NCBI RefSeq assembly: GCF_009828925.2
Contig: NZ_WUTY02000002.1
Coordinates: 310,001-374,000, forward strand
Reading direction: 5' to 3'
From: Methylicorpusculum oleiharenae
Lineage (GTDB): Bacteria > Pseudomonadota > Gammaproteobacteria > Methylococcales > Methylomonadaceae
DNA length: 64,000 nucleotides
Part shown: positions 30,521 to 48,986 of the stretch, one piece after another
Position numbering within the stretch: position 1 is the first letter of the stretch
Layout: each line of letters begins with the position of its first letter
Translations under genes and position numbers: made by a program
Notes under the pieces: model-generated
Seen by the model: the letters and a program-made list of their open reading frames with translations, nothing else
The model's database searches: none
What the model was told of the DNA's origin: nothing

Positions 30521-30593
30521 CCCACCGGGGAAACACTTCTCCCGGTATGGGCGCTGGTGTTTCCCCTTTTTTTCTTGAATTAGGAGAAACACC
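30521..30593 (+). promoter_or_regulatory. Alternating-block leader before the AAA ATPase gene
   Basis: Blocks run CCC-ACC-GGGGAAACAC .. CCC-GGTAT-GGG .. GTGTTTCCCC, then seven T and GGAG. GGGGAAACAC and GTGTTTCCCC pair perfectly. GGTGTTTCCCC also pairs with GGAGAAACACC, the Shine-Dalgarno and upstream-of-start segment, at 10 of 11 positions. The two pairings exclude each other. Confidence 0.8.
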
Positions 30594-31565
30594 ATGAATG
30601 TAAAAAAATTCCCTATCGGCCAAACTTTCGCCATTGCCGCACCTGCAGCGATGACTGTTGACGGCTTTGAAGATGCTTCGCATCCTTCAATTCCGGCAAG
30701 AAAAGATTACGTGTTCAGAAATGAACATCTCAGGGATATCTTGGCGTACATCGCCAACCCTGTTGGCGACGCGTTGTATTTGACCGGTCCTACCGGTTCC
30801 GGAAAAACATCATTGATCTCCCAAGTTGCTGCCCGTTTGAACTGGCCAGTTCAACAAGTCACCTGTCATGGTCGTCTTGAGCTGAACGATTTGATCGGTC
30901 AATTCATGCTGGTTAACGGCTCTATGTCTTTTATCCATGGGCCTTTGGCTCAGGCCGTCCGAGACGGACATCTGTTGATCTTGAATGAGATCGATTTGAT
31001 GGATCCCTCTGAACTGTCTGGTTTGAACGATATTATCGAAGGGCAACCTTTGGTCATTCCTCAAAACGGTGGCGAAATCATCAATCCTCACCCGAAATTT
31101 CGTTTGATTGCTACCGGCAACTCCGCTGGTCAAGGCGATCAATCCGGACTTTATCAAGGTGTCATGCAGCAAAACCTCGCTTTCCTCGATCGATTCAGAT
31201 TAATGGAAGTGAGTTACCCAGATGCATCTATCGAGCAATCCATTCTCAAGTCTGTTTTGACCGGAATGGGCGTTCCTTTCGATTCTGTCATGGAAAATTT
31301 GACCGAAAAGATGATTCAAGTGGCCAATGAAATTCGTCGACTCTTTGTCGGTGGAACTGACGGTTCTGGCGAACTCAGTGTAACCATGTCTACTCGGACG
31401 CTTGTTCGCTGGACAAACTTGATGATTGCTTATAAGCGTGCTCCCAATGCGCTGGCGTATTCGTTGGATCGTGCGCTCACCTTGCGTGCAGAGCCTGCTC
31501 AGCGCGAAGCCATTCACAGGATTGCCAAAGATGTATTTGGTGATACCTGGGGAGATGATGCGTAA
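30594..31565 (+). CDS. CobS/MoxR-like AAA+ ATPase
   Basis: 323 aa. Walker A LTGPTGSGKTSLI (residues ~63-75), Walker B HLLILNEIDLMD (~125) and sensor 1 RLIATGNSAGQG (~165) are present. The order and length match the CobS type of the MoxR branch. Family knowledge: such ATPases work with a VWA-domain partner, here most likely the CobT-like protein at 36628. The genuine CobS partner is in cobalt chelation, but no cobalamin genes are present, so a chaperone-like role on another substrate is inferred. The stop overlaps the next gene (TAATG). Confidence 0.87.
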   Translation: MNVKKFPIGQTFAIAAPAAMTVDGFEDASHPSIPARKDYVFRNEHLRDILAYIANPVGDALYLTGPTGSGKTSLISQVAARLNWPVQQVTCHGRLELNDLIGQFMLVNGSMSFIHGPLAQAVRDGHLLILNEIDLMDPSELSGLNDIIEGQPLVIPQNGGEIINPHPKFRLIATGNSAGQGDQSGLYQGVMQQNLAFLDRFRLMEVSYPDASIEQSILKSVLTGMGVPFDSVMENLTEKMIQVANEIRRLFVGGTDGSGELSVTMSTRTLVRWTNLMIAYKRAPNALAYSLDRALTLRAEPAQREAIHRIAKDVFGDTWGDDA

Positions 31566-32299
31566 TGACGGCTGCTTTAGCTTACGATCTGTATCGCTTC
31601 ACTAATCCGGATCGTTCAACCAAAGATTGGGCTGTTCGTGATAACGGTGATGGTACCTATACCTCTCGTTGGGGCAAAACGGGTACCCGGCTTCAGGCCA
31701 AGACCTTCGCTAAAAATAGGCTTTCCATGAATGAGCATATCAGATCAAAGGTCTCAAAAGGGTACAAGTCCATTGGCCAGGTATTGATTGATGACGACGG
31801 TACAATTTCGTCAGCAGATTCCAAACCACTTGACCAGGACTCGTCTCCAACCGAAGAATCTTGTCTATTTTGGCGCCTAAAGATCAAACAGACAGATCTT
31901 TCAGACACTCAAGCCATTGGGACATTTCATGCAAATGTTTTGGCAATGAGCAGTGCAATTACCGACTGCTTTGGTCCTTCTGTCTGGATTAAAGAGTTCC
32001 TGCACGCCATGCTTAATGGCCATTTGTCTAATGCAGGAAAGCTATTCAAGCAACAAGGTGTCGCTTCATTATTGCTTTTTATGGCTATGATGAAAGTTGC
32101 GCCCAAACAAGTTAGCATTCATTTATCCCATGATGATGGTGTTGACATCAGTAACAAGATAAAGCTCGAATCCAAAGCGTTGTCAATATTCGATACCGAT
32201 TTGGAAAGTGTCCGACCTGTTGCCGAATCACTCGGTCTTCTTGAGAAGCGCATCGATTTATCGCTTGTCTCATCTTCTCAGGACGATTTTTACTTTTAA
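31565..32299 (+). CDS. WGR-domain protein, 244 aa
   Basis: The N-terminal ~75 residues have the WGR pattern: a Tyr/Phe-rich start (YDLYRFTNPDRSTKDWAVRD), then TYTSRWGKTGTRLQAKTF, and a helical 'K..KGY' end. The rest is unrecognised. WGR domains bind nucleic acid or accompany PARP and MolR-type proteins. Coupled by TAATG to the AAA ATPase gene, so equimolar expression is likely. Confidence 0.8.
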   Translation: MTAALAYDLYRFTNPDRSTKDWAVRDNGDGTYTSRWGKTGTRLQAKTFAKNRLSMNEHIRSKVSKGYKSIGQVLIDDDGTISSADSKPLDQDSSPTEESCLFWRLKIKQTDLSDTQAIGTFHANVLAMSSAITDCFGPSVWIKEFLHAMLNGHLSNAGKLFKQQGVASLLLFMAMMKVAPKQVSIHLSHDDGVDISNKIKLESKALSIFDTDLESVRPVAESLGLLEKRIDLSLVSSSQDDFYF

Positions 32300-32315
32300 C
32301 TTATAACTTTTGCTT

Positions 32316-32389
32316 ATCCCTAAAGGGGCAGTCTATCGCCCCATTGGGTCGTGTGCTGCCTCATATTTATTCATTTTTTGGAGGTAGTT
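32316..32389 (+). promoter_or_regulatory. Alternating-block leader before the DUF3150 gene
   Basis: CCC-TAAA-GGGGCAG .. GCCCC-ATT-GGG .. CTGCCTC, T-run, GGAGGTAG. CTGCCTC pairs with GGGGCAG upstream (one G-U) or with GAGGTAG of the Shine-Dalgarno (one G-U), 7 of 7 in either state. Confidence 0.75.
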
Positions 32390-33658
32390 ATGTCACACAA
32401 GGCAGAAATGATTTTGGACCAAATCGATGTCGTTAAACTCGACATTAATCTTTGGACCAGCTCAAAAAAATTAAGACCTGAGGATCTTGTGTTAGCCGAT
32501 GGTTCCAAACTTCCGCCGGAAGATTTGGCTTATCTCGGTACCAAAAAGACCATTGATCCCGACAAGCTGAAAGAATTCAACCGCATCAAAAAGGAAGCGG
32601 AAAGAATTTGCCTTCAGTCAGGTACTCGTTTCCTCGGTGGCTTTGCTAATCCGCGGGATGAAATTCCTCGAATTACTCAAGAGCTGGATGAGTTGTCTAA
32701 AGAGTTTAGCAAAGCCCGTGACCAGCTTCTGTCCACGTACCATCAGGACACAGAAGAATGGATAGCGCGTCATGCTGAATTTGGTGATGCAATTCGTCGT
32801 GCCATTGAGCCAGTTGATTCCGTTGCGGCAAAGTTGCGATTCGATTACGTTGTCTTTCGCGTAACCGTTCCTCAATCCGAGGTGGTTTTGCCGGATTCAA
32901 CGCCGGCAGCTGTCGAGTCTCTGACGCGTCGCACCCATTCCATGAGCGACCAGCTTTTCCATGAAATCGCTCAGGAAGCCAGTCAACTTATCGATCGATC
33001 TTTCGTCGGTAAGGACACGGTGACCGGTCGATCCCTCAATGCTTTTCGGAGAATGCGGGATAAGTTGGACAGTCTCGGTTTTCTTGATCATCGGTGTATG
33101 CCGGTTGTCGATAGAATCGATGTTGTATTGGATGCCTTGCCCAAACAAGGCCCGTATAACGGCAGTCCTTTTAACAGCTTGTTTCACCTGGGTTTGCTGC
33201 TGTCCGATCCGGACAAGATCAAACGTCATGGCAGTGGTTTGTTGCAAATGGAATCAATCTCGGTTTCAGATGCAATGGCTATGACCGGATCTGATGGAGA
33301 AGATGACGATGCAGTAATGCCCGATTCATCCCCTACTGACGTTGCCAATGAAGTGCCTGTCGAAGCACCCGTTGCCGTAACATCCGCTGTTACTTCCGAA
33401 GAAGATAATGATCTTCCCGGTTTTGACTTCCTCTCTAACTACCATCCCTCAAAGGATGTATTTGATAGCGCACCTTCTGTCGAAGTTGCTCAAGATGTTC
33501 TGAATCCGGCTCCTGAAGCAAGCACCTTTATGGCTTCTGTCAAAGAAACTGTAAAAGTTGCCTCTGAAACCGCTTCAACATCATCAGTTCCTGTTCTCAT
33601 TGAGGACGAGCCTGAAACGCCATCTGCTGCAAAAGTAGTTGAAGATTTCTGGTTCTAA
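32390..33658 (+). CDS. DUF3150-type protein, 422 aa
   Basis: The start is ATG 32390 behind GGAGG; an upstream in-frame start would cover the leader. The region LDQIDVVKLDINLWTSSKKL .. KKTIDPDKLKEFNRIKKEAE .. GTRFLGGFANP is the DUF3150 signature as I remember it. A long acidic, Pro/Ser/Val-rich tail follows from ~residue 300. Family knowledge: DUF3150 genes accompany CobS-like and CobT-like genes on phages and large plasmids, exactly as here. Function unproven. Confidence 0.8.
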   Translation: MSHKAEMILDQIDVVKLDINLWTSSKKLRPEDLVLADGSKLPPEDLAYLGTKKTIDPDKLKEFNRIKKEAERICLQSGTRFLGGFANPRDEIPRITQELDELSKEFSKARDQLLSTYHQDTEEWIARHAEFGDAIRRAIEPVDSVAAKLRFDYVVFRVTVPQSEVVLPDSTPAAVESLTRRTHSMSDQLFHEIAQEASQLIDRSFVGKDTVTGRSLNAFRRMRDKLDSLGFLDHRCMPVVDRIDVVLDALPKQGPYNGSPFNSLFHLGLLLSDPDKIKRHGSGLLQMESISVSDAMAMTGSDGEDDDAVMPDSSPTDVANEVPVEAPVAVTSAVTSEEDNDLPGFDFLSNYHPSKDVFDSAPSVEVAQDVLNPAPEASTFMASVKETVKVASETASTSSVPVLIEDEPETPSAAKVVEDFWF

Positions 33659-33664
33659 TTTTTC

Positions 33665-33736
33665 TTCCCTGGCGGACGCAATTCATTCCGCATGGGATGT
33701 TTGCCTCCTCCTCCATTTCTCTTTTTTGGAGGCCCT
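33665..33736 (+). promoter_or_regulatory. Alternating-block leader before the 33737 ORF
   Basis: CCC-T-GGCGGACGCA .. CC-GCAT-GG .. TGTTTGCCTCC, TTTTTT, GGAGG. The 3' arm pairs with GGCGGAC (with G-U pairs), and GCCTCC is complementary to GGAGGC at the start region. Confidence 0.6.
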
Positions 33737-33943
33737 GTGGCTAATAATTATTCTCAAGCAACGGTTTCACCGGTTCTTCCTGTAGCTGCGGGGAGTCGCT
33801 ATTTTTGCGAAAGCTTGTTTTGGGCATCCCAGCCCAATCAAGCAGCAAAAATTACGCGACCACTGATGCCTCCGGCGGCCCCGATTCGTCCGCGTCGCCT
33901 CGTTTCGACCCAACAAGGGGTCGAAACATTGGCTCTCGCATGA
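33737..33943 (+). CDS. Possible 68-aa protein (GTG start)
   Basis: The start codon is chosen because GGAGG and a standard leader precede GTG 33737. The product (MANNYSQATVSPVLPVAAGS..) is low in charge and Pro/Ala-rich with no recognisable fold. Its last third overlaps a strong hairpin (33902-33927), so part or all of this frame may be non-coding. Confidence 0.35.
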   Translation: MANNYSQATVSPVLPVAAGSRYFCESLFWASQPNQAAKITRPLMPPAAPIRPRRLVSTQQGVETLALA

Positions 33944-34070
33944 CTTAACGCCGTTTCGCGATGCCTTGCAGGTTTTCTCCGCAAGCTCCGAAAACCCGCC
34001 CGGCGCTACGGCTATCGGGGACTAAAAATCTTCACTTCGCTAAAGCTCCGTTTCCAAGATTTTCAGCGCT
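33902..34070 (+). ncRNA. Cluster of strong hairpins between two ORFs, possible structured RNA
   Basis: Three perfect stems occur in 170 nt: GTTTCGACCC-AACAAG-GGGTCGAAAC (approximately 33902-33927), GGTTTTC-N12-GAAAACC (33971-33996), and AAAATCTT .. AAGATTTT (in 34020-34065), the last enclosing smaller complementary pieces. The density of pairing exceeds that of neighbouring coding DNA. It may be a regulatory RNA or a long 5' leader for the next gene. Confidence 0.4.
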
Positions 34071-34683
34071 TGTTACTGATTTTGAAATAGTCCTGCTCAA
34101 CGCGTATGGATTTCATTTCGAAACACACGTATCCAACGGTGAGCGCTCCTACTATTTCTACGTTTCTGACGGCGAAAGCGATGAACTCGGTCATTTTGAC
34201 CTTGATTTGATCGAAGAGTATGCCAAGCAAGACGATGAACTCGCCCTTGATTTACGGCAATACATTCTCGAAAACGGCGATGGTGACATTGACCAACACA
34301 TTTCATTTAATTACAGCTGGCCTTTATTGTTCCAGCGCATCCTTAACAAACCGGGATGCACGATTGATGAAATTGTTGTCGAAGGCGCTTTTTATTGTGA
34401 CAAGTTACGAGAAGGTGAGTTTGGTGGCTGGATTACCAGAATTACCCGGTTTACTGTCCAGCACGGTGGTACTCAGGCCATGTTGATTCAAATGCAACAA
34501 GAGTCTGCTTTCTTGGAGGCTCTTGATACTGTTTATCAATTGGCTTCGGCTAATTGTGCCGACAATGAACACGATCCTGAAGATCCGCTGTTGGATGAAT
34601 GCTTGTCTGAAGACTGTCGCAAACAACGCGCTGCGCTCGACCTCATCCACGATTATTACGTCAATCATGAATTGAATCGTTAA
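33961..34683 (+). CDS. Hypothetical acidic protein, up to 240 aa (start uncertain)
   Basis: From about residue 40 the sequence is good protein (DFEIVLLNAYGFHFETHVSN; DGDIDQHISFNYSWPLLFQR; FGGWITRITRFTVQHGGTQA). The first ~38 residues are Pro/Arg-rich and are read from the hairpin cluster, and no RBS precedes ATG 33961. The gene also lacks the usual alternating-block leader. I suspect that the true start is a non-ATG codon further in. Function unknown. Confidence 0.5.
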   Translation: MPCRFSPQAPKTRPALRLSGTKNLHFAKAPFPRFSALVTDFEIVLLNAYGFHFETHVSNGERSYYFYVSDGESDELGHFDLDLIEEYAKQDDELALDLRQYILENGDGDIDQHISFNYSWPLLFQRILNKPGCTIDEIVVEGAFYCDKLREGEFGGWITRITRFTVQHGGTQAMLIQMQQESAFLEALDTVYQLASANCADNEHDPEDPLLDECLSEDCRKQRAALDLIHDYYVNHELNR

Positions 34684-34685
34684 TT

Positions 34686-34752
34686 AACCCTCTAGGGGCA
34701 ATCGTGCTCCTTTTGGGATTATGACTTACCTCTTGTTTTACTGGAGCAGTTT
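34686..34752 (+). promoter_or_regulatory. Alternating-block leader before 34753
   Basis: CCC-TCTA-GGGGCAATCGT .. CTCC-TTTT-GGGA .. ATGACTTACCTC, TTGTTTT, GGAG. Block order is kept, but the outer arms pair less well than in the other copies. Confidence 0.5.
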
Positions 34753-35232
34753 ATGAAAAGAATTCTTACTCCTGATCAGGCAATTGCTTATTTTTCTATT
34801 GTTTTGGATGAGCTAAGTATTGACCCATTCAATGAAAGTTCTGTTTTCTGTTCGGAATATATCAATTTGGATTTTGCTGGTATTGCAATGCCGGCTATTC
34901 AAATAGATCCACCGCTGACTTATGAGCAACGTGCTTTAATCGGCCAATTGTGTGACAAAAATCGATCTTCACAAAAATATCGGTTTGCGAAACTCTTGCG
35001 TCATTTCCGGCACAAGATATCGAACTATCTTAATTCCAAGAACCTTCAAGATGCCCACTATGCATGGAGAAGAGATCCTTTGAATGTCGGTCTCGATTTT
35101 TCTTTAAGTCCACGAGGCATTGCAGAAATGCGATTCCTAAAACGGGTCCGGAGGGCATCCAATAACTCTATTCCCGGCATAGTTGGAAAGAGCTACACAG
35201 AATATCTAAATGGTGTTTTTGCCAGAATTTAA
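34753..35232 (+). CDS. Hypothetical protein, 159 aa
   Basis: A soluble protein with no recognised motif (MKRILTPDQAIAYFSIVLDE; PPLTYEQRALIGQLCDKNRS; basic C-terminal half RFLKRVRRASNNSIPGIVGK). Start ATG 34753 follows GGAG at 9 nt. One of the leader-bearing small genes of the array. Confidence 0.6.
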   Translation: MKRILTPDQAIAYFSIVLDELSIDPFNESSVFCSEYINLDFAGIAMPAIQIDPPLTYEQRALIGQLCDKNRSSQKYRFAKLLRHFRHKISNYLNSKNLQDAHYAWRRDPLNVGLDFSLSPRGIAEMRFLKRVRRASNNSIPGIVGKSYTEYLNGVFARI

Positions 35233-35247
35233 CTTTTAATCTTTATT

Positions 35248-35310
35248 AACCCTTGAGGTGAACCATTTGCCTCTCGGGCCCATGGTTTGCCTCTTTTATG
35301 GAGAATGACT
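35248..35310 (+). promoter_or_regulatory. Alternating-block leader before 35311
   Basis: CCC-TT-GAGGTGAACCAT .. GCC-TCTC-GGGC .. ATGGTTTGCCTC, TTTT, GGAG. All 12 positions of the outer arms pair if two G-U pairs are allowed. Nearly identical to the copy at 36562, in which a base of the arm differs and pairing is kept. Confidence 0.8.
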
Positions 35311-35808
35311 ATGAAAAAAGAATTGTTCGAATCAGAACTGCCCAATGGCAATGTCATCAAATATGCTCGATTGCCTTCAGACACCTGTTACCACCAGGAA
35401 ACGCCCGATCAAGTAATCCGCCTTTTGGAGAACCTTCAAAAATGCGGCACTGAAGTCAGGATTTTTTATGGCGATACTCAAACAGGTCAGTCTTGGCATG
35501 ATGAATTTGATATGGTTGGTCGAATTGGACGTTCAACGGGAAGCATCAAAATTCCATTGATAGTGCCCAAGGGAGACTCTGGCGGTCCTGCTTTACTGGA
35601 TCACTGCATTATCCGTATCGATACTCGTATGGAAACGCTCTATCAGCACAAGAAGTTTCGTGTTGGTGACATGACGTTAGCTCAAGGTAATGACAACCAA
35701 CTACCCTGGGAAGTGTTTATCGACAGAGCTCTGCATGCTCGATTTGTACTGAATGCTGAAGCGACTAAATTCATGAGCTTCTTGCAAGGCAACTTGTTTG
35801 CGATGTGA
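35311..35808 (+). CDS. Hypothetical protein, 165 aa
   Basis: Start ATG 35311 is 7 nt after GGAG; earlier in-frame starts lie in the leader. Soluble (MKKELFESELPNGNVIKYAR; IPLIVPKGDSGGPALLDHCI; HARFVLNAEATKFMSFLQGN). The PKGDSGGP stretch superficially recalls the serine-protease 'GDSGGP' motif, but no His/Asp partners are evident, so no protease is claimed. Confidence 0.6.
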   Translation: MKKELFESELPNGNVIKYARLPSDTCYHQETPDQVIRLLENLQKCGTEVRIFYGDTQTGQSWHDEFDMVGRIGRSTGSIKIPLIVPKGDSGGPALLDHCIIRIDTRMETLYQHKKFRVGDMTLAQGNDNQLPWEVFIDRALHARFVLNAEATKFMSFLQGNLFAM

Positions 35809-36163: not shown

Positions 36164-36228
36164 AAACCCCTGAGGGAAACTATTTTTCCTCATGGATCAT
36201 GGTTTTCCTCTTTTTTGAGAGTAAAACC
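36164..36228 (+). promoter_or_regulatory. Alternating-block leader before 36229
   Basis: CCCC-T-GAGGGAAACTAT .. TCC-TCAT-GGA .. ATGGTTTTCCTC, TTTTTT, GAGAGTAAAACC. The outer arms pair throughout with G-U pairs. The 3' arm also matches GAG..AAAACCAT at the start codon with a short internal loop. Confidence 0.75.
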
Positions 36229-36546
36229 ATGGATACAGATTTGATCACAAAGGTTACCCAGGTTATCCCAAGGCAAGACGGTTCTGAACTTAAAATTGTT
36301 GTTGAACAGATGACTGGCCTTGGTTTGCATGGCTCCCTATGGATTTATGTTCATCGTCGCGAAACGATTGATCACCCTTGGATATTGCTTAGCGATAAGC
36401 CTCATCCTAATTGGCGATCTATGTCCGTAAATGACTATATTGAGCATGGTCGTTCTGAAATTTTCCAATCAGTTTCTCCTGGAGAAATCCTTAAATTGAT
36501 CCACATGATTGGCAAACCAATGACTTCATTACAAGTCACTGTGTAA
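36229..36546 (+). CDS. Hypothetical protein, 105 aa
   Basis: A compact beta-rich soluble protein (MDTDLITKVTQVIPRQDGSE; LGLHGSLWIYVHRRETIDHP). ATG 36229 is set by the leader. No family recognised. Confidence 0.55.
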   Translation: MDTDLITKVTQVIPRQDGSELKIVVEQMTGLGLHGSLWIYVHRRETIDHPWILLSDKPHPNWRSMSVNDYIEHGRSEIFQSVSPGEILKLIHMIGKPMTSLQVTV

Positions 36547-36561
36547 TTTTTTAAATTTTAT

Positions 36562-36627
36562 TAACCCTTGAGGTAAACCATTTGCCTCTCGGGCCCATGG
36601 TTTGCCTCTTTTATGGAGATACACACC
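36562..36627 (+). promoter_or_regulatory. Alternating-block leader before the CobT-like gene
   Basis: CCC-TT-GAGGTAAACCAT .. GCC-TCTC-GGGC .. ATGGTTTGCCTC, TTTT, GGAG. The outer arms pair over 12 positions. ATGGT of the 3' arm is also complementary to ACCAT at the start codon. Confidence 0.8.
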
Positions 36628-38430
36628 ATGAACAATCAAGACTTGAATAACGCCTTTCCAATCGTTGCTGCTGCTTTGGGCAACAAATTTGGCGTCAAAG
36701 TTTCTGTTGGCGGAGACGATGCTTATACAACTGGGGATCGCATTCACCTTCCAGCCTTAGACACGGAAGATAACAATATCAAGGATATTGCCTGGGGTTA
36801 TTTGGCGCATGAAGCTGCGCACGTTCGTTTCACTGATTTTGGTGAGTTTCGAAACGCCGCAACAAATCCGTTACGTAAAAACATCGTTAATATCCTGGAA
36901 GATATCCGCATCGAGAAATCCATGCAGGATCCCTATCCAGGTACAAAACGGACTACGGAAAAAGTGGTTGAATACTTGGTGAAAACGGGTGGTTTTGGCT
37001 TTGTCACAAAAGATCAAGATCCTCATCCAGCCAAAGTGCTATCGCAATTCATGTTGTTCCGTTTAAGACACGATATTCTGGGTCAAAAAGCCTTGGCTTC
37101 GTTCGCGGATTCTGCTGAATCGCTATTGGAAGAAACTTTCCCAACCGGCGCGGTTACCCGATTGTTTGGCCTTTTGTCCGATGTGCCTCATTTGAATGAA
37201 ACCCGTGATTGCGTTCGGCTTGCCGATCAGATTTTGCGGATGATTCAAGAAGAGCAAGAAAAGGCTGAAGAAGAAGCCAGGCATCAACAGTCGCAACAAT
37301 CACCGAGCAGCGCTGGTGGACAATCAGATCCGTCTGATGACGCCACCGACGATCAAAGTGATGATTTATCGTCTGATACTGATGATTCTCAACAGAATCA
37401 ACAGTCGCAGCCCGATAACGCCAATGGCCAATCAGATACGTCTGATCCTGCCGATGACAACTCGGATCAACAGTCTGGACAGGGTGCAACATCATCCCAT
37501 TCGGGTGCCGATGACCCCTCTCAGGATGCCGAACAATTGGCGCAAATCTTGTCTTCCCTGCTTTCAGCCAGTCAAGATGATTTGCCTGATGATTTGTTTG
37601 AAGCCGTGCAAGAGTTGTTGGGTAATCAGCCAAGAAACAGTTACGACTCTGATATTCATTTGCCCCTGGCGATGGAATCGGCGCGTAATCCGTCGATTGG
37701 CAATGCGATATTGAATCGAGCCCTTTCTGAATCCGGCAAAATCCGGGCTTCGTTACAAGGCCTGATTCAATCCAGCCGTTATGAACGTCCGATCAACAAA
37801 CGATCTGGTAACAGAATCGATGGTCGTAAGCTGGTTCGATTGTCTCAAGGGGATTCTCGTGTTTTCGAACGCAGAACTCACAAGCAGGCGCCCAATACGG
37901 CTTTACACTTGTTGGTTGATGCGTCGGGTTCGATGAATCGTTGTATCAGCTTGAATTCATCGATCACCCTGGCAGATCTGGCTATGGATTCGGCAGTTGC
38001 TTTGGCTTTGGCGCTTGAAGGCATTTCGGGTGTCAATCCGGCGATAACACGTTTCCCACATGAAGATACTGACAACGTCACTCCATTGTTGAAGCATGGC
38101 CAAAAGGTTCGTCCCAATGCGGCTGTGTTTTCTGCAATTACCAATGGAGGAACGCCGCTTCATACCGCAATTTGGTATGCCGCTGCGAGTGTTATGGCAA
38201 CCAAGGAAGATCGCAAGGTCATCATGGTTCTCACCGACGGTGAGCCTGATGATTTCGATGCCACCAAGTCAGTTATCCGGCGCTGTCAAGCGACTGGTAT
38301 TGAATTGGTGGGTGTGGGAATCTGTATCGACATCCGTCATCTGTTTGATCATTCGATCTGCATCAACAATGTGTCCGATCTGCGTTCAGAGCTGTTCAGA
38401 ATCAGCAAGGATTTGTTGTTGGCTGCTTGA
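36628..38430 (+). CDS. CobT-like protein: HExxH metal-site domain plus VWA domain
   Basis: 600 aa. The N-terminal domain contains H61-E-A-A-H65 (LAHEAAHVRFTDFG) and, about 25 residues on, NILEDIRIEK with E91, the spacing of a zinc metallopeptidase site. Residues ~215-310 are a low-complexity Gln/Ser/Asp linker. The C-terminal VWA domain has a MIDAS motif D-A-S-G-S (LLVDASGSMNRC, ~430) and later NGGTPLHTA and LTDGEPDDF. With the CobS-like ATPase and DUF3150 protein upstream it forms a MoxR/VWA-type pair. No cobaltochelatase CobN is present, so a substrate other than hydrogenobyrinate is likely. Confidence 0.85.
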   Translation: MNNQDLNNAFPIVAAALGNKFGVKVSVGGDDAYTTGDRIHLPALDTEDNNIKDIAWGYLAHEAAHVRFTDFGEFRNAATNPLRKNIVNILEDIRIEKSMQDPYPGTKRTTEKVVEYLVKTGGFGFVTKDQDPHPAKVLSQFMLFRLRHDILGQKALASFADSAESLLEETFPTGAVTRLFGLLSDVPHLNETRDCVRLADQILRMIQEEQEKAEEEARHQQSQQSPSSAGGQSDPSDDATDDQSDDLSSDTDDSQQNQQSQPDNANGQSDTSDPADDNSDQQSGQGATSSHSGADDPSQDAEQLAQILSSLLSASQDDLPDDLFEAVQELLGNQPRNSYDSDIHLPLAMESARNPSIGNAILNRALSESGKIRASLQGLIQSSRYERPINKRSGNRIDGRKLVRLSQGDSRVFERRTHKQAPNTALHLLVDASGSMNRCISLNSSITLADLAMDSAVALALALEGISGVNPAITRFPHEDTDNVTPLLKHGQKVRPNAAVFSAITNGGTPLHTAIWYAAASVMATKEDRKVIMVLTDGEPDDFDATKSVIRRCQATGIELVGVGICIDIRHLFDHSICINNVSDLRSELFRISKDLLLAA

Positions 38431-38578
38431 TCTTAAAAAACCGTAGCCATTCATGTTTGAGTGGCTATTTCCTTTCCAGACATTGAGTGCTTTCCTTGTG
38501 AAAGCCTCTTTGTCTATTTTTCCCAAGAGGACGTTTTGGAAAGCGTTTAATAGTTTTTCTGATCATTTTTCAAAACGT

Positions 38579-40365: not shown

Positions 40366-40372
40366 CATTCGA

Positions 40373-40573: not shown

Positions 40574-40597
40574 TTTTTAACGGCATTGCCGTATTTT

Positions 40598-40671: not shown

Positions 40672-41121
40672 ATGTACAACAAATCGCAATTAATTGGACG
40701 TTTAGGCCGTGATCCAGAAGTTCGCTTTACGGCGGAAGGCAAAGCAGTTGCCAACTTAGCCGTTGCGACCAAGGAATCATGGAAAGATAAAGCCTCAGGC
40801 GAGCGTAAGGAAAGTACGGAATGGCATCGAGTCGTTCTGTTCGGAAAGCTTGCTGAAATTGCGCGTGATTATCTTCATAAAGGCGCATTAGTTATGCTTG
40901 AAGGTCCTATCCGGACCCGCAAGTGGCAGAAAGATGGCGTTGATCAATTTACGACTGAAATTCATGCCGACACAATGAAAATGCTAGGAGGCAAAAATGA
41001 TAATTCTTCTGGATCATCAACTTCCTCTATTCGTACAGCTAATTCATCCCCGTCATCATCTAAACAAGAACCTGCTTACAGCGCAGATTTTGACGATGAT
41101 TTTGACGATATCCCGTTCTAG
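40672..41121 (+). CDS. ssb: Single-stranded DNA-binding protein
   Basis: 149 aa. The OB-fold is typical ([60 protein letters not shown]). It is followed by a Ser-rich linker and the acidic tip DDFDDIPF, which recruits partner proteins. It protects ssDNA during replication and recombination and is the natural partner of the Bet annealing protein that follows. Confidence 0.97.
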
Positions 41122-41184: not shown

Positions 41185-41265
41185 TAACCTTTGCCCTTTG
41201 GGACATCATTTGTCCCCTTGGGATTCGTGATGTTCCTTCCTTTTTTATCTTTTAGGAGTTACACC
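41185..41265 (+). promoter_or_regulatory. Alternating-block leader before bet
   Basis: CCC-TTT-GGGACATCAT .. GTCCCC-TT-GGG .. GTGATGTTCC, TTTTTT, GGAG. The outer arms pair over 10 positions with G-U pairs. Complementarity to the Shine-Dalgarno is partial. Confidence 0.72.
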
Positions 41266-42204: not shown

Positions 42205-42223
42205 TTGTTTCGTTCTAACACTT

Positions 42224-42291
42224 AACCCTAATGGGCATCCTTTATGCCCATTTTGGGAATACAGGGTGCCTCTTTCTTTTGGAGAGTCATC
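42224..42291 (+). promoter_or_regulatory. Alternating-block leader before 42292
   Basis: CCC-TAAT-GGGCATCCT .. GCCC-ATTTT-GGG .. AGGGTGCCT, T-rich, GGAG. The outer arms pair over nine positions with G-U pairs. Pairing to the Shine-Dalgarno is weak. Confidence 0.7.
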
Positions 42292-42465
42292 ATGATTAAA
42301 AAGTTATTTCTTAACAAAATACCGGTAAAAAAAATATCGCCTGACGTGTTTGTCAGACGCAATTACGACAAGTACGACCAACCAACCGTGATCCGTCGTC
42401 ACGGCATGTATTTTCGAGAAAAACTTTGGAAGGTCAAAAAGTCAGATCATCATAAGGGAGATTGA
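42292..42465 (+). CDS. Small basic protein, 57 aa
   Basis: A basic peptide (MIKKLFLNKIPVKKISPDVF; VIRRHGMYFREKLWKVKKSD) between bet and the exonuclease gene, with its own leader. The exonuclease start follows two bases after the stop. A nucleic-acid-binding accessory is plausible; the family is unknown. Confidence 0.6.
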   Translation: MIKKLFLNKIPVKKISPDVFVRRNYDKYDQPTVIRRHGMYFREKLWKVKKSDHHKGD

Positions 42466-43532: not shown

Positions 43533-43557
43533 CTGACCATCAGTCATTTTTTCATTT

Positions 43558-43622
43558 ACCCACCGGGGAACCTCGTCCCCGTTTGGGCACGCACGTTCCC
43601 CTTGTTTTTTTGGAGGTGTCAT
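43558..43622 (+). promoter_or_regulatory. Alternating-block leader before 43623
   Basis: CCC-ACC-GGGGAAC .. TCCCC-GTTT-GGG .. GTTCCCC, seven T, GGAGG. The GGGGAAC and GTTCCCC arms pair perfectly. Confidence 0.75.
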
Positions 43623-43976
43623 GTGCGCAAAACCTACTTCAAAGGGAAAGACCGCTCTTTCAATTTGGATTTATTTGACGATTGGGACTGGCTATTTGGT
43701 CCGGAACCTGTCGTTGAGGAAATTCCCTTGTGGTCGGAACAAGACATCATGGACATCAGCGAATGTCTTCTAGAGGATTCGTTGAGGAACCTGTTCGATA
43801 CGCGATGTTCGATGAAAACCGTTGCGGAAATTCATCAATGGATGATCGCTATCAACGATCCCAATCCATTTAGTTTTGTGAATTGCTGCAAACTAGCCGG
43901 CCTTGATGCCGACGAACTTCGAGATACGATCCTTGATCGCTTGAAACGAATTCGTCGTACTATTCATTTACATTAA
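43623..43976 (+). CDS. Hypothetical protein, 117 aa (GTG start)
   Basis: GTG 43623 overlaps an out-of-frame ATG (43621) as ATGTG. The GTG frame is the long coding one (MRKTYFKGKDRSFNLDLFDD; DIMDISECLLEDSLRNLFDT; DADELRDTILDRLKRIRRTI), while the ATG frame ends after 50 poor-looking codons. Acidic N-terminal half, basic end. No family recognised. Confidence 0.6.
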   Translation: MRKTYFKGKDRSFNLDLFDDWDWLFGPEPVVEEIPLWSEQDIMDISECLLEDSLRNLFDTRCSMKTVAEIHQWMIAINDPNPFSFVNCCKLAGLDADELRDTILDRLKRIRRTIHLH

Positions 43977-44057
43977 CCCATACCGGGGAAACACGCTTTC
44001 CCCTATCGATGGGCATTGTGGTGTTTCCCCTTTTTTTCTTGAATTAGGAGAAACACC
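43975..44057 (+). promoter_or_regulatory. Alternating-block leader before 44058
   Basis: CCC-ATACC-GGGGAAACAC .. CCCC-TATCGAT-GGG .. GTGTTTCCCC, seven T, GGAGAAACACC. The last 38 bases are the same as in the leader of the AAA ATPase gene (30521), showing recent copying or strong selection. The 3' arm has the same two alternative partners. Confidence 0.82.
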
Positions 44058-44555
44058 GTGTCCGAAATGAAAAATTTCGCCGTCACCTACACCATCGACT
44101 ATCAACATCGCGTGGTTGTTGGTGTTTCGGCTTTGAATACCGAATCCGCCATCGAAATTGCCACCAAAGCATTTGATGATGGTGTGATTTGGGACGATAC
44201 GCCTGAGATGCCGCTTCTTTTCGATGATTACGAAGAAGTTGAAGGCGAAACACTGCAATTTTCTGCTGAAGCAATTCAGGCTTTTCCAGAACCCGATTCT
44301 TCGGTCACACAGATCAAAGCCCATCAGTTTGCGTTTTATTGCGCACAGGCTTTGTTGGCTGGCGAAACAACGACAGCGCTTGAATTTGCAAACAAGGCTT
44401 TGCCCCAAGTCGTTCCTTCCCAACCGGAAGAATCGACCTGGCAAGTTAAAAGCAAAAATGGTTGCGAGCCTTTCGATGTGACCGCTGTTAATCAGGAAGA
44501 AGCGCTTCGTGACGCTTTGTTCGCCATTGGCTGGTCAGTTTCACCCAAAACGTGA
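44058..44555 (+). CDS. Hypothetical protein, 165 aa
   Basis: GTG start behind GGAG. The N-terminal half (FAVTYTIDYQHRVVVGVSAL; ESAIEIATKAFDDGVIWDDT) resembles small alpha/beta plasmid proteins. The segment FAFYCAQALLAGETTTALEF, then ANKALP, recurs in the next gene (FAYQACQSILAGD .. AAIDYAKKAFP), so the two share a domain. Function unknown. Confidence 0.6.
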   Translation: MSEMKNFAVTYTIDYQHRVVVGVSALNTESAIEIATKAFDDGVIWDDTPEMPLLFDDYEEVEGETLQFSAEAIQAFPEPDSSVTQIKAHQFAFYCAQALLAGETTTALEFANKALPQVVPSQPEESTWQVKSKNGCEPFDVTAVNQEEALRDALFAIGWSVSPKT

Positions 44556-44587
44556 TCTGTCACTGGTTGTACTCATTTTTTTTAATT

Positions 44588-44654
44588 AACCCATTGGGGA
44601 GATGTTTTGCTCCCTCAGGGTGCTGCATCTCTCTGTTCATTTAGGGAGAAATCC
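44588..44654 (+). promoter_or_regulatory. Alternating-block leader before 44655
   Basis: CCC-ATT-GGGGAGATG .. GCTCCC-TCA-GGG .. GCATCTCTC, T-rich, GGGAGAAAT. The outer arms pair over GAGATG:CATCTC plus G-U. CATCTCTC also pairs with GAGAAAT at 6 of 7. Confidence 0.7.
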
Positions 44655-45115
44655 ATGCCCAACGAAATCATTGAAAATGCCTTTGCGTATCAAGCCTGCC
44701 AGTCGATTTTGGCCGGCGATCAAAAGCCGCAATTGACTACGCCAAAAAAGCATTTCCATCGCTACTGGATGAGCCAGAAACCGCTTGTTTGACTACTGTG
44801 CAGTTGCTTGATCTTGCTCAAGATCATCATCTTGATATTTCACTGTCTTTAAACGGGGGCTATCGCACAGGGTTTTATTTGGGGGCAAAATCGCCACTAG
44901 GCCTTCATAACCATAAAGGATTCGATGGACTGTCTCATCAAGTACTGCCTGTCGAGCTATTGCGTTATTACCCAAATCCGCTTGAAAAGGTTTGGCGTAT
45001 CGATCGTAAAACGCCCGCAAAATCGGTCTATCGGACTCTATCCAGTCTTCGTCAATCGATAGTTAAGCGATTTATCAGCCTCTCGTATTGTTCGCCGCTG
45101 ATTTACTTCTATTAA
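44655..45115 (+). pseudogene. Hypothetical gene with a -1 frameshift near 44720
   Basis: ATG 44655 reads MPNEIIENAFAYQACQSILA, then GDQK, and the frame then ends at 44792. Shifting -1 at CAA-AAG (44720-44725) gives KAAIDYAKKAFPSLLDEPET, then ACLTTVQLLDLAQDHHLDIS, and so on to 45115. The joined text matches the paralogous segment in the preceding gene, so both pieces belong to one protein of ~153 aa. It is either a mutation or a programmed frameshift at A-AAG; the sequence does not decide. Confidence 0.65.
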
Positions 45116-45135: not shown

Positions 45136-45206
45136 AACCCAATAGAGGGACGACCTATTTCCCTCTATCGGAAATTGGGCGTCACTCTTCATTTTAGGAG
45201 AGCAAC
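45136..45206 (+). promoter_or_regulatory. Alternating-block leader before 45207
   Basis: CCC-AATA-GAGGGACGACC .. TCCC-TCTATC-GG .. GGGCGTCACTC, T-rich, GGAG. The outer arms pair with two mismatches. CGTCAC of the 3' arm is exactly complementary to GTGACG, the start codon and second codon of the gene. Confidence 0.65.
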
Positions 45207-45470
45207 GTGACGCTTAACTTGCAGACATCGATTGTTTCAAAAGAGACCGGATCATTTCTCGTTCGGAAAGTACCCAGTATTTTTACTAATCGTACTGGCA
45301 AACTCGACATTGTGATTCACAAAGAAACCGACGGAAGTTGGGGCGCTTTGTATGATGGCAAGCGCTATTTCATTGCGATGATTTTTGAAGCCGAAACCTA
45401 TCGGCCTATTCGATCCAGTCATTCGGTTCCGAAAGAACTACTGGATAATCTGGTTGCATGGGGATTTTGA
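45207..45470 (+). CDS. Hypothetical protein, 87 aa (GTG start)
   Basis: GTG 45207 follows AGGAG. A compact beta-rich soluble protein (SFLVRKVPSIFTNRTGKLDI; KETDGSWGALYDGKRYFIAM). The next gene begins 2 bp after its stop. No family recognised. Confidence 0.6.
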   Translation: MTLNLQTSIVSKETGSFLVRKVPSIFTNRTGKLDIVIHKETDGSWGALYDGKRYFIAMIFEAETYRPIRSSHSVPKELLDNLVAWGF

Positions 45471-45735: not shown

Positions 45736-45805
45736 AACCCTCGCGGGATCATTTCCGCCCGGGAATGACGCCGCGAATTATAATTTTCAATTCAAGGAGT
45801 CATCC
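45736..45805 (+). promoter_or_regulatory. Alternating-block leader before 45806
   Basis: CCC-T-CGCGGGATCATT .. GCCC-GGG .. AATGACGCCGCG, AT-rich, GGAGTCATCC. The outer arms pair with two mismatches. ATGACGCC pairs with GGAGTCAT of the Shine-Dalgarno at 7 of 8. Confidence 0.68.
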
Positions 45806-46444
45806 ATGTCTCACACCCTTTCTTACAAACATTTGGTCATCAAATTCCCGCATGAAACAGTGCAGGAACAACTGGCTGATTTTCCGCATTCCTTTTGGCG
45901 AGATCTGTTCATCTTGCTCGAACTCTGTGGTCCCAGCAATTGCACGACTTTTCATCCGCTCACAGGGCGAGAAGTTTATGCCAGAAACTGGACCACTCGC
46001 GCCATAGGCGATGCCACTGAAATCATCGAAGAAGCCTGCCGTTCAGCTGCGTATTGCGAAGGCCGGAATCTGCGCTTCTACAGAGAACGCGAGACAACCC
46101 CTGAACGCTATATCCGTCGGGTTCGAAGTGCTTTGTCTGCACCGGTATCCGTTCAAGAAGCGAACTATTGGGGAATTTCATTGCACGTTCAACTCGATCA
46201 AAAGCTCGTCAAAGACGCCCCGTATGCGATTGACCTACTCAATCAGCATGCGTCCTGGCACGAGAACGATGCCAACGAACGCTATTGGATGTTGTACCCG
46301 TTAACGTCCTTAAAGGATGCCGCCATCTTGTTCAAATTTCGGTTTTTACCTTTGTCGTCATGGTGCTTTATAGAAACCAACGGCCCTTGTTTTGAACATG
46401 AAGCCCGTGGACTTTTTTCATCATCAAATTCACGCGCTGCCTAA
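45806..46444 (+). CDS. Hypothetical protein, 212 aa
   Basis: A soluble protein with conserved-looking aromatic and Arg residues (PHETVQEQLADFPHSFWRDL; FHPLTGREVYARNWTTRAIG; NQHASWHENDANERYWMLYP). Start ATG 45806 behind AAGGAG. No motif that I can name. It is the last gene before L-element copy 4. Confidence 0.6.
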   Translation: MSHTLSYKHLVIKFPHETVQEQLADFPHSFWRDLFILLELCGPSNCTTFHPLTGREVYARNWTTRAIGDATEIIEEACRSAAYCEGRNLRFYRERETTPERYIRRVRSALSAPVSVQEANYWGISLHVQLDQKLVKDAPYAIDLLNQHASWHENDANERYWMLYPLTSLKDAAILFKFRFLPLSSWCFIETNGPCFEHEARGLFSSSNSRAA

Positions 46445-46538: not shown

Positions 46539-46745
46539 CCGAAAGACGACCTTATTCAGGCGTCTTTCGAATTTCACAGCCTGACGGTATCGCGCATAAT
46601 GCTCATACCGTCTTCCCAGAATGTTCTTTCAGAGTGCATTGTGGAAAGACCGAATTTTTGTAGTTCTCTAAGAGAGCTCAAAAGCAAGTGCCCATTCAGC
46701 ACTCAAAATAAAGAACCTGTTAAGCGCCTTTGGCGTGATTTTTAC
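46539..46745 (+). promoter_or_regulatory. L-element copy 4, upstream of the GHKL ATPase gene
   Basis: A perfect 9-bp hairpin CGAAAGACG .. CGTCTTTCG, then promoter TTCACA (46573-46578), 16 bp, CATAAT (46595-46600), and the same foldable leader. The end hairpin here is C-CTTTG-G type (GCGCCTTTGGCG) with the stem kept. The few changes relative to copies 1 and 3 leave the stems intact. Confidence 0.85.
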
Positions 46746-46749
46746 TTTT

Positions 46750-46824
46750 ACCCATCGGGAACAATTCAATTCCCATGGGGAATATTTTGTCTCCCGATTT
46801 TTTACTTAAATTTGGAGATAAGTC
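46750..46824 (+). promoter_or_regulatory. Alternating-block leader before 46825
   Basis: CCC-ATC-GGGAACAATTC .. TTCCC-ATG-GGGAA .. TTTTGTCTCCC, TTTTTT, GGAGATAA. GGGA-ACAA pairs with TTGT-TCCC around one unpaired base. TTGTCTCC pairs with GGAGATAA at 8 of 8 (one G-U). Confidence 0.75.
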
Positions 46825-48432
46825 ATGAAACAAGTTGCCATGAAAGTTAATCAATCCAACCTGGTCAAAAGCTTGAAATTCAGCTTTACCAATAAGACCA
46901 CGGTTCTGGGTGAACTCATGCAAAACGCCCGACGCGCAGGCGCAACTTCAGTAAATTTCGATTTTGCACCCGAGACTAAGATTCTTCGCGTGACAGACAA
47001 CGGTTGTGGCATCGATTCTATCGAGACGTTGTTGACTGTCGCAGAATCGGGTTGGGACGCTGATGTTGTGGCTCAAGAGCATCCATTCGGCATAGGATTT
47101 TTGTCGGCTTTGTTTGCCTGCCGACATATCACTGTCGTCAGTAAAAGCGGAAGAATATCCGTCAATACCGATGATGTTCTGTCATTCAAACCGGTTGAAA
47201 TAACACCTGTCCCAGAATGGGACAACGTAACAACCATTACCATGGTTGCTGTTGATCTTGAATTGAGCCGTGTCGAACATGAACTTAAGCGTCTTGCTTC
47301 GGCGTTTCCCATAGCTGTTCTGTTCAATGGCACCGAACTCGATCGTCCTCATGCGATAAATTCCGGTCTTAAATTTTTAGAGACTGAAGTTGGCCTGATT
47401 TCTCTTGCTTGTTTTGATCAGCCGAACGTGAACAACTATGCCTATGTCATGTATTTACAGGGCCTACCTATCTACAAGTCCTCAAGCTATGGATCATTTG
47501 GTTCGCCTGGTTATCATGTTATTCACCTTGACTCGTCAAAGTTTTTCGGCCGGTTACCTGATCGAGACGAATTGGTTGACAAAGATGAAGTGGTAAATTT
47601 GGCAAAGGCTGCTTTAAAAGGCGAAATAGAGAAACACTTGCTGTTAATGAAGTCCAGTATGCCTTTCGAAACATTTGTTGCTTATTACGACATGATCAGT
47701 GAATGGGGTTTGTTATCAATTCTCAACGATGTGCCGGTAATTCCCATCAAAGCGTTAACCGAATATTCATCCTATCCGAATTGCTCTGAAGAAAGCTTTG
47801 GTGAATTTGAAACTCGTCCAGCTAAACCCATACATCAAAACGAGGTAATCTCTGGCCAAGTCCAGTTGGTAACTTTCGATGAATGTATCGAAGCAGAAGG
47901 ATCTGCTCTGTCGATGTATGTATTTAAAAAAGGATTCTACGTCTATCCTGCAGGTTCAAAAAAACTGGATGAAGGCCATTGGCTGCTCAATCATCTACGA
48001 GATCTCAACCAAGAATCCGTTCGTATTGAACTTATCAATGAATCTCATCGCGCTTATTTCGATGGGCAATTTATTTGTATTAATGCGGTTTTTTGTCAGT
48101 CCTATCAGATTTGGGTTGGTGACGATAATGCCGAAATTGACGATGACGCCATGTTTGATGGTTCCAACGCCATTGTTCCCGAAAAGGATACAACTGGCTC
48201 TGTTGTAACGCAGGCTTCTTCGTTCCGGGATGAAGGCGATTTTCAACAGTCTGCTTACGATCAAGATGAATATGATTTCTCGCAGTTTGTTGTCGCAAAT
48301 ACCTCATCGGATCCTGCCCATGCCTTGAAGCAATTGCTGCCTGGTTTTAGCGCCTGTCCTTCGGTATTTGGCAAATCATTCGTTGTTACGCTTGATGAAA
48401 ATGGTCGTGTTGCCTCAGTAACATCTGCCTAA
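46825..48432 (+). CDS. GHKL-type ATPase (Hsp90/MutL-like ATP-binding protein), 535 aa
   Basis: The N-terminal ATP-binding fold is complete: N-box VLGELMQNARRAGATSVNFD (residues ~29-48), G1 box RVTDNGCGIDSIE (~57-69) and G2 PFGIGFLSALFACR (~89). The rest lacks MutL or Hsp90 C-terminal signatures. A low-complexity Asp-rich segment (GDDNAEIDDDAMFD) lies near residue 435. Role unknown; ATP-driven conformational change in DNA repair, restriction or chaperoning is typical for the fold. It starts a new transcription unit behind an L-element. Confidence 0.82.
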   Translation: MKQVAMKVNQSNLVKSLKFSFTNKTTVLGELMQNARRAGATSVNFDFAPETKILRVTDNGCGIDSIETLLTVAESGWDADVVAQEHPFGIGFLSALFACRHITVVSKSGRISVNTDDVLSFKPVEITPVPEWDNVTTITMVAVDLELSRVEHELKRLASAFPIAVLFNGTELDRPHAINSGLKFLETEVGLISLACFDQPNVNNYAYVMYLQGLPIYKSSSYGSFGSPGYHVIHLDSSKFFGRLPDRDELVDKDEVVNLAKAALKGEIEKHLLLMKSSMPFETFVAYYDMISEWGLLSILNDVPVIPIKALTEYSSYPNCSEESFGEFETRPAKPIHQNEVISGQVQLVTFDECIEAEGSALSMYVFKKGFYVYPAGSKKLDEGHWLLNHLRDLNQESVRIELINESHRAYFDGQFICINAVFCQSYQIWVGDDNAEIDDDAMFDGSNAIVPEKDTTGSVVTQASSFRDEGDFQQSAYDQDEYDFSQFVVANTSSDPAHALKQLLPGFSACPSVFGKSFVVTLDENGRVASVTSA

Positions 48433-48445
48433 TCTTTTTTTCTTT

Positions 48446-48512
48446 AACCCGACCGGGGATCATTCTCCGTTTCGGATTGATGGTCACCGGTCATTTTTAT
48501 AAGGAATTATTT
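48446..48512 (+). promoter_or_regulatory. Alternating-block leader before 48513
   Basis: CCC-GA-CCGGGGATCAT .. TCC-GTTTC-GGA .. ATGGTCACCGG, T-rich, AAGGAA. The outer arms pair with one mismatch. No useful match to the Shine-Dalgarno. Confidence 0.6.
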
Positions 48513-48803
48513 ATGAATCTGTCCCTTAGTAACCCAGTCGTTCAATCTCAAGTTGCTTCCGATTTGTTTTTAAAGCAAGCCCGTTATGACCGGCTTCATC
48601 ATTTGAGACGACTTCAATGGCTTAGCCAGCAAGAACCATGCTGGTCATGTGGAACGCCTGTGTCACCGTCCGATGTTTACCAAATGATCAGGGCGAGCAA
48701 GCTTGTCCTAGATATGCCTCCAATGGCTTTTAACCATTGCGACATCAACAATAGCCACTACGTTGCTTTACTCGATCAATTCGCATTGAAAAACGCTCTT
48801 TAA
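48513..48803 (+). CDS. Hypothetical protein, 96 aa
   Basis: Start ATG 48513 after AAGGAA. The product (MNLSLSNPVVQSQVASDLFL; RLQWLSQQEPCWSCGTPVSP) has a CWSCG pair that may be half of a zinc site, with later His and Cys (NHCDINNSH). No family recognised. Confidence 0.55.
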   Translation: MNLSLSNPVVQSQVASDLFLKQARYDRLHHLRRLQWLSQQEPCWSCGTPVSPSDVYQMIRASKLVLDMPPMAFNHCDINNSHYVALLDQFALKNAL

Positions 48804-48832
48804 TGAAGCATTTATAAGAGTAATTACTAATT

Positions 48833-48986
48833 TAACCCCATCTGGGAGAACTCAATCTCCCATTCGGGCGCATGTTTTCTCTTGGATGGTTTTCCTTCCT
48901 GGCGGCCGGGGCTTAGTTGATGTTCCCCGACATACGGAGGGCATCAAGTAAGTCTCGGTTGTTGGGACATTACTAGGAGAAAAATC
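48833..48986 (+). promoter_or_regulatory. Long alternating-block leader before 48987
   Basis: CCCC-ATCT-GGGAGAAC .. TCCC-ATTC-GGG .. GTTTTCTC starts the element. It is extended by about 90 bp with further complementary blocks (GGCCGGGGC, GATGTTCCCCGACAT, GGAGGGCATC) before AGGAG. It may contain two switches in series. Confidence 0.55.

Follow-up and report, generated by a model that had tools for sequence, protein, structure and literature searches.

Why should almost every separately spaced gene of a single bacterial array be preceded by a leader of one design, and what could such leaders do? The question is raised by a 64,000-nucleotide (nt) stretch of Methylicorpusculum oleiharenae (the window; positions 310001-374000 of contig C2, NZ_WUTY02000002.1, in a 5.85-Mb genome of three contigs, G000). 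Between about 30.5 and 50 kb, its plus strand carries an array with a plasmid-like set of DNA-recombination genes, whose products include a MoxR/CbbQ-type AAA ATPase, DUF3150, CobT/VWA, SSB, RecT/Bet, YqaJ exonuclease, HATPase and Toprim/primase-zinc-ribbon proteins, plus unknowns. We consider it probable, at about 0.75, that these leaders belong to a mobile-element family of cis-acting translational attenuators, one before almost every array gene.

Leader design and its two pairings

An earlier note, made from the letters of the window, had pointed to about twenty such leaders; all 20 are present, with the block order that it gave: C1-G1-C2-G2-C3, then the Shine-Dalgarno sequence (SD) and the start codon. 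In 5' to 3' order, a leader often opens with TTAA. C1 is CCC, G2 is GGG, and G1 consists of a G-run, for instance GGGG or GAGG, and a tail that varies; a spacer separates C3 from the SD. Across 320 leaders from a wider set described below, C1 and G1 are usually 2-5 nt apart and C2 and G2 1-5 nt, and the loop between G1 and C2 is usually 6-12 nt long, ranges that are bounded by what the search descriptor permits; between C3 and the SD the median distance is 10 nt (266 leaders). Beyond the helices, the AA before C1 is the one partly conserved unpaired feature that stands out, the two bases being A in 76% and 61% of the 320 leaders against 37% for an A before CCC generally. The longest string common to more than half of the window leaders is TTAACCC (11 of 20), and because nothing beyond it is shared in this way, an antisense RNA reading a common core, as the earlier note had imagined, is unlikely.

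Two pairings define the design, and both had been proposed beforehand. When each 5' segment in the window is scored against its own partner and against those of the other 19 leaders (with four start codons set one base early), G1:C3 gives 21.3 for own against 14.3 for swapped partners (z 9.4, p<=0.0005), and pairing of C3 with the SD/start gives 16.1 against 13.7 (z 3.9, p<=0.0015), with 12 of the 20 scoring at least 15, in line with the expected dozen. For a larger sample we took relatives of the CobT/VWA protein (80 of the 146 bacterial loci found, 12 plasmid stretches and the window: 93 loci, 2.12 Mb, with L001-L004 and L006 excluded). Leaders were selected there by H1 (C1:G2 as outer and G1:C2 as inner helix), an SD and an open reading frame (ORF) of 40 codons or more, irrespective of C3 and of what it pairs with. 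This gave 821 matches on the plus strand and 106 on the minus strand, against 12 and 24 in reversed controls; part of the 106 are H1 seen in mirror image, its layout being unchanged by reverse complementation. Removing identical cores left 582 of the 821, and removing redundancy left the 320, from 52 loci, with three from the window. Among them G1:C3 (C3 being called D in this set) scores 20.0 for own against 13.9 for swapped partners (z 37.4) and C3:SD 18.0 against 13.4 (z 29.5). The excess persists in the tails alone, both for the G1 tail without its G-run (z 23.9) and for C3:SD minus the first four SD bases (z 27.8), and Methylococcales (n=129), other bacteria (n=191) and a pair of IncC-typed plasmids (n=27) each show it when analysed alone. 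The same C3 stretch serves both pairings in 192 of the 211 leaders that have both, which agrees with the two exclusive folds envisaged earlier. G1 resembles its own gene's SD/start more than those of other genes (z 10.9), so C3 is able to pair with either partner.

Alignments point the same way. We could locate the start of cobT/VWA at 91 of the 93 loci, and a strict descriptor gives a leader at 75. Our alignment A3 holds 42 orthologous cobT leaders out of the 91, with near-duplicates removed by eye; it omits L011, L013, L031 and L090 (no clear leader by eye, R2, a covariance model described below, giving weak matches in L011) as well as L018 and L019 (misplaced starts), and it includes two rows without C1 (L046, L094) and two without the first C1 base (L026, L050). 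For G1:C3, 83% of cells are paired, against 46-63% in slid registers, with 29 double-change cells against 9.6 after shuffling (0/500 shuffles as high), which bears out the covariation across loci that had been claimed. The corresponding values for C3:SD are 68% against 24-50%, with 20 double-change cells against 13.9 (12/500), and those for H1 are 75% against 51-70%, with 23 against 14.0 (0/500). In a many-gene alignment of 150 leaders (144 distinct), made with a model lacking G1:C3, C1:G2 and G1:C3 together show 169 double-change cells against 84 shuffled (0/500) and 79% paired cells against 44-66% slid; C3:SD is strong there too, in an alignment that itself leans toward C3:SD. At the level of sequence, G1:C3 and C3:SD are shown to be maintained well beyond what swapped partners give, in different genes, replicons and orders of bacteria.

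How the pairings might translate into states was gauged by folding, with the 266 of the 320 leaders that score at least 16 for G1:C3 used for the unconstrained counts and for those of T-runs, and all 320 for the test with an open SD. The predicted OFF fold combines H1 with C3:SD/start and would hide the ribosome site; the predicted ON fold, in which G1:C3 excludes both G1:C2 and C3:SD, would leave the SD free, and C1:G2 may persist in it as a pseudoknot. Unconstrained, the minimum-energy nested fold is OFF in 214 of the 266 and G1:C3 in 31. When the stretch from SD to start is kept unpaired, 256 of 320 own leaders have G1:C3 as their minimum, compared with only 55, 57 and 60 of 320 chimeras in which the H1 of one leader is joined to the C3-SD part of another. 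These chimeras fold OFF without constraint at least as often as own leaders (284-291 against 258 of 320), as expected because the cognate C3:SD is kept.

Occurrence in the window and beyond

Between 30594 and 50569 we placed 28 array genes by eye, with some ends 1-2 bases off. The 20 with a leader lie at least 69 nt from the preceding gene, 30594 being the first gene, and the eight without one (31565, 33961, 35817, 42468, 44789, 45473, 49211 and 50291) all follow gaps of at most 17 nt, which fits the earlier remark that genes coupled by overlap lack it. The ORF at 50740, 3' of the array, has a gap of 170 nt and no leader. A near-identical stretch is shared by four upstream regions (about 30300-30515, 38570-38665, 40370-40575 and 46545-46745), and its 57-base core has four copies in the genome, each directly 5' of a leader. 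Because this core precedes leaders four times, one promoter or activator site may serve several array operons.

Two covariance models were used for detection. R1, built from the cobT/VWA leaders of 42 loci including one window row, finds 17 of the 20 window leaders at E<=0.32 and 14 at E<=0.01, missing 33665, 45736 and 48446. R2, built from 150 leaders of which seven are window rows, misses only 33665: 19 leaders reach E<=0.22, among them 17 with E<=0.008, and 12 of the 13 window leaders outside its training set are recovered. Further window matches outside the leaders lie at 13037 and at 7032, where R2 gives E 0.21, level with the weakest leader that it finds. A descriptor with all three pairings matches 16 places on the plus strand of the window (13 in the array) and six on the minus strand, against one and four in the reversed sequence.

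All 20 leaders lie on the plus strand, and bit scores given here are those of R2 unless marked. That of the MoxR/CbbQ-type AAA ATPase gene (30518-30596, ATG 30594) reaches 50.7 bits, with G1:C3 at 26.5 and C3:SD at 27, and is followed by the DUF3150 leader (32316-32392, ATG 32390; 41.7 bits). The leader at 33665-33739 (GTG 33737), missed by both models, scores 18 for G1:C3 and 17 for C3:SD, and that at 34686-34755 (ATG 34753) has 41.3 bits with weak pairings (12.5 and 9). Next come 35246-35313 (ATG 35311; 40.8 bits), 36164-36231 (ATG 36229; 46.1 bits, G1:C3 23, C3:SD 23.5) and the CobT/VWA leader at 36561-36630 (ATG 36628), whose orthologues make up A3 and which scores 45.7 bits with R1 as a member of its training set. 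The leader at 38668-38739 (ATG 38737), whose gene is the first after a repeated upstream region, has 38.8 bits, and the leader at 39473-39549 (ATG 39547) has 52.1. The ssb leader spans 40597-40674 (ATG 40672; 26.9 bits), the RecT/Bet leader 41191-41268 (ATG 41266; 39 bits), before the same gene as the attenuator reported in SXT, and the leader of a small gene 5' of the YqaJ exonuclease 42223-42294 (ATG 42292; 23.8 bits).

Two details needed correction in the remaining third. The leader at 43556-43625 (36.4 bits), listed earlier at 43558, probably serves the GTG at 43623, a likely start because the homologue in L110 begins with identical residues. It is followed by 43975-44060 (GTG 44058; 32.2 bits, G1:C3 26, C3:SD 26.5), 44587-44657 (ATG 44655; 31.3 bits), 45136-45209 (GTG 45207; 16.6 bits, E 0.044, G1:C3 29), 45736-45808 (ATG 45806; 13.5 bits, E 0.22, weak C3:SD of 7.5), the HATPase_c_3 leader at 46748-46827 (ATG 46825; 30.1 bits) and 48446-48515 (ATG 48513; 19.9 bits, weak C3:SD of 10.5). 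The last, at 48833-48989 (ATG 48987, of a gene that overlaps the Toprim gene), is a long variant with extra sequence, including a hairpin, between C3 and the SD; R2 gives 22.7 bits over 48834-48989. The enlarged part (window 48870-48975) is also longer in two relatives (L111, 13397-13493; L005, 35607). The Toprim genes of an IncC plasmid (L014, 37957-38041) and a Pseudoalteromonas plasmid (L013, 16130-16213) have a different, longer inverted-repeat leader sharing GTCGGGGTTTCCTTAA.

Other features of the window were seen in passing. A repeat-like insert of about 290 bases (about 33793-34079) lies within or after the gene starting at 33737, whose homologue in L110 (start 19659) diverges from about this insert onward; the insert matches a Methylomonas plasmid, with nine match places for the query in that record. 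At 52663-52747, 3' of the array and before a small gene at 52833, lies a cyclic di-GMP-I riboswitch aptamer (Rfam, 56 bits). A single ORF of 871 amino acids at 53848-56463 matches HupE/UreJ and then a TonB-dependent receptor plug and barrel, which seemed unusual, and a DNA polymerase III beta-clamp gene occupies 22134-23231 on the minus strand of this second contig.

The leaders span the array, as the earlier note had it, and are not confined to its replicon: arrays in many conjugative plasmids, in integrative and conjugative elements (ICEs) and in further mobile elements share the design. Within its own genome, R2 at E<=0.1 gives at least 38 matches: 15 in this array, five in a cluster at C1:1983-1993 kb, 17 in another at C1:3703-3733 kb and one that stands alone. 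In the own-genome searches, scoring covered the best 150 candidates, out of 685 in one search and 577 in the other; these matches come from the latter, and the counts are lower bounds. The two clusters on the main contig hold genes of like kind, judged by their start sequences, and with these two further leader arrays the genome holds three related regions. Genomes with matches, the own genome included each time, number at least 10 of 41 relatives, at least 10 of 274 in the same class and at least 8 of 398 in the same phylum, where searches over 40 genomes used stricter filters and the genome counts are again lower bounds. A scan of viral contigs with the cobT alignment gave 57 pattern matches, none of them a relative, and the candidate H2/L006 proved to be a match to a repeat and not to the array.

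Carriers include IncC plasmids, an SXT/R391 ICE, plasmids of Methylomonas, Comamonas and Azospirillum, and a second array type. In an IncC plasmid (L014; 41.8 of 166 kb covered) there are 24 matches, all on the coding strand, from 13213 to 40111; they are confined to the bet-exo-cobT-toprim part, and the transfer genes at the start of the stretch have none. The second array type (L113-L115) bears, in one or more of the three loci, genes for a topoisomerase, DUF3577, RadC, DUF3275, DUF6094, DUF6573 and an SNF2-type helicase, and from these genes we take the arrays to be parts of mobile elements. Wherever the surroundings can be named, the leader accompanies mobile-element gene arrays. The 191 bases around the bet leader of the SXT/R391 element ICEMprChn1 occur in 7 of 5,426 Escherichia coli genomes, at 98% identity in the five of the seven that were listed, and for the IncC bet leader region there are 722 plasmid records with a match, 714 of which show 90-95% identity.

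A putative translational switch and its alternatives

The pairings suggest a decoy arrangement, with C3 as antisense of the start region, G1 as a mimic of that region and C2 as the segment that would hold G1. As long as C2 holds G1, C3 would hide the start; once G1 is free, C3 would be removed from it. Opening of the SD, or release of G1 from C2, would let G1 capture C3, and the leader would then stay ON. A ribosome, a host factor, a protein of the element or folding kinetics alone might throw the switch. Because most leaders have OFF as their nested minimum, the default would be low translation even under strong transcription of the operon. The element's recombination and DNA-metabolism genes would thereby share one translational brake on top of transcriptional control. 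More tentatively, and at less than even odds, this could be a new RNA switch family in which a decoy of each start competes for a shared antisense, which has spread horizontally along with different mobile elements and by which an array responds jointly to one signal. If so, a single signal, for instance DNA damage or arrival in a new host, would address a regulon united by RNA design, not by sequence.

Several observations weigh against this reading. C3:SD pairing is weak in 8 of the 20 window leaders, and in A3 it is not above shuffles in pairs changed on both sides (59/500) or in pair types (218/500); further pair types in H1 are not above shuffles either, and one slid register of H1 outscores the true one in covariation (0.253 against 0.230). 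By our reading of the nested folds, 14 of the 20 window leaders are predicted to be OFF and six to form G1:C3 (36562, 41185, 43558, 45736, 48446 and 48833). Nested masking of the SD is common generally (191 of 266 leaders against 423 of 740 control genes), and the cost of freeing the SD stands at 4.1 vs 5.8 kcal/mol in the control-versus-leader comparison. Finally, the attenuator mapped in SXT may or may not be this same fold, the two having been compared through ICEMprChn1 and a review.

No trigger was found, which also weighs against a switch, and no conserved binding core either; both absences favour the idea that the leaders are passive insulators, a triggerless sub-case of the attenuators in which SDs are simply hidden and G1:C3 is a folding safeguard. 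The prevalence of OFF as nested minimum (214 of 266) suits it as well. A pure mask would need no mimic in G1, though, and yet the tail of G1, which H1 leaves unpaired, fits its cognate C3 (z 23.9), which makes this idea somewhat unlikely in our judgement. We hold it unlikely, too, that the leaders are binding sites for one RNA-binding protein, encoded by the element or the host, that represses or activates the whole array. The uniform layout and the partly conserved AA before C1 would suit such a protein. The first gene of the operon, in five plasmid arrays, looks by eye like a small membrane-anchored protein and was rejected as a trans-acting factor on that account. CsrA was rejected as well: its single copy in the genome lies on a different contig and at a great distance from the two further arrays, and only 139 of 320 leaders have GGA near G1. 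In the part of the proteins that was scanned, we noticed no RNA-binding family that the arrays share. Coupling to an upstream ribosome was likewise rejected as a requirement: an upstream ORF ends within 150 nt in 239 of the 320 leaders, with a broad spread and a median of 23 nt, none does in the other 81, and four window leaders come after the repeated upstream region instead. Because upstream stops are scattered and often absent, such coupling is no general requirement.

A transcriptional role, raised by the earlier note, would have G1:C3 and a T-run act as an intrinsic terminator, with H1 as antiterminator, gating read-through gene by gene. The G1:C3 stem is G+C-rich, and TTTTT follows C3 within 10 nt in 39 of 107 Methylococcales leaders, where the supposedly usual T-run is indeed frequent; it is found in 15 of 159 others, which makes it a local trait outside the common design. 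With a stem and direct T-run in 54 of 266 leaders, intrinsic termination was rejected as a general role. It would also leave the match of C3 to its cognate SD spacer and start unexplained, and a review describes bet and exo of SXT as highly transcribed and translationally attenuated (PMC4542580). We therefore regard transcription attenuation as very unlikely. A DNA-level function in a single-stranded phase, such as conjugative transfer or priming, is the least probable of all. The leaders do sit in mobile elements near ssb and recombination genes, and the STAXI motif was once discussed as a DNA-level structure (PMC2864571); their position is tied to the SD and start codon, however, and single-stranded DNA offers no reason for C3 to match its own SD spacer.

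A review describes IncC plasmids and SXT/R391 ICEs as major vehicles of bacterial gene spread and their control as mainly transcriptional, with one translational attenuator before bet (PMC4542580). Our data suggest that a single RNA design gives translational control to many genes per element and unites arrays that have few genes in common. The layout, a decoy and a start competing for a shared antisense, can moreover be tested without alignment.

Relation to known systems

Searches of open-licence literature found no array-wide leader family and one precedent, the bet attenuator of SXT, for which Garriss et al. 2013 is reportedly the primary paper. According to the review, a site upstream of bet in SXT is a strong translational attenuator that hinders expression and is also present in IncA/C plasmids (PMC4542580). 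The gene and the element family are shared with our leaders, as judged through ICEMprChn1 and the review's description. In ICEMprChn1, from Marinomonas profundimaris D104 (L057), the bet leader at 4267 fits the H1 descriptor, and its C3 is able to pair with G1 or with the bet SD; R2 matches it weakly (E 0.07). Both this leader and that at 16283 of the IncC-typed L014 lie directly 5' of bet. An SD that can be sequestered by upstream leader sequence, as an attenuator of this kind would have, is seen across the 320 leaders in the own-over-swapped excess of C3:SD, and among the orthologous cobT leaders in compensatory changes. The SXT attenuator is reported for one site, and the review's passages on it do not mention leaders of other genes, a G1 mimic, covariation or other elements.

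Rfam 15 has nothing over a leader at the gathering cut-off in the window, L005 or L014. By E-value, no leader match reached gathering in window 29000-53000, L057, L101, L103-L105, L107 or L113-L115; one sub-gathering match, U6atac at 20.2 bits (cut-off 33), lies antisense to a leader in L105. The earlier impression that no named RNA family has this layout holds for Rfam; the bet site of SXT, already reported as a translational attenuator, had escaped it.

In erm-type attenuators, ribosome stalling on a leader peptide switches pairing from 1:2+3:4 to 2:3. They resemble the leaders in having a pair of alternative folds, each excluding the other, by which the SD is hidden or freed; the difference is that the leaders here would go from 1:2+3:4 to 1:3. 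The small riboswitches preQ1-I and SAM-II have an H-type pseudoknot adjoining the SD. The leaders, by comparison, have no evident conserved ligand pocket, their arms vary widely, they come in about 20 copies per array and they match no Rfam family. STAXI (RF01728) is a pseudoknot found near ssb, topoisomerase and antirestriction genes (PMC2864571). It consists of two, usually three, tandem pseudoknots, against one unit per gene in the leaders. Rfam gave no STAXI match in the carriers searched, and STAXI was found in none of 274 genomes in which R1 matched 10, a weak negative because the STAXI control genomes were silent as well.

Control of the kind proposed here, in which alternative folds sequester the SD, is already known, and there is an earlier report of one site. 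What appears undescribed in the open-licence literature is the leader family with its decoy layout and its placement ahead of nearly every array gene in several elements; these make the puzzle of bet and exo, transcribed yet poorly translated, testable on many genes.

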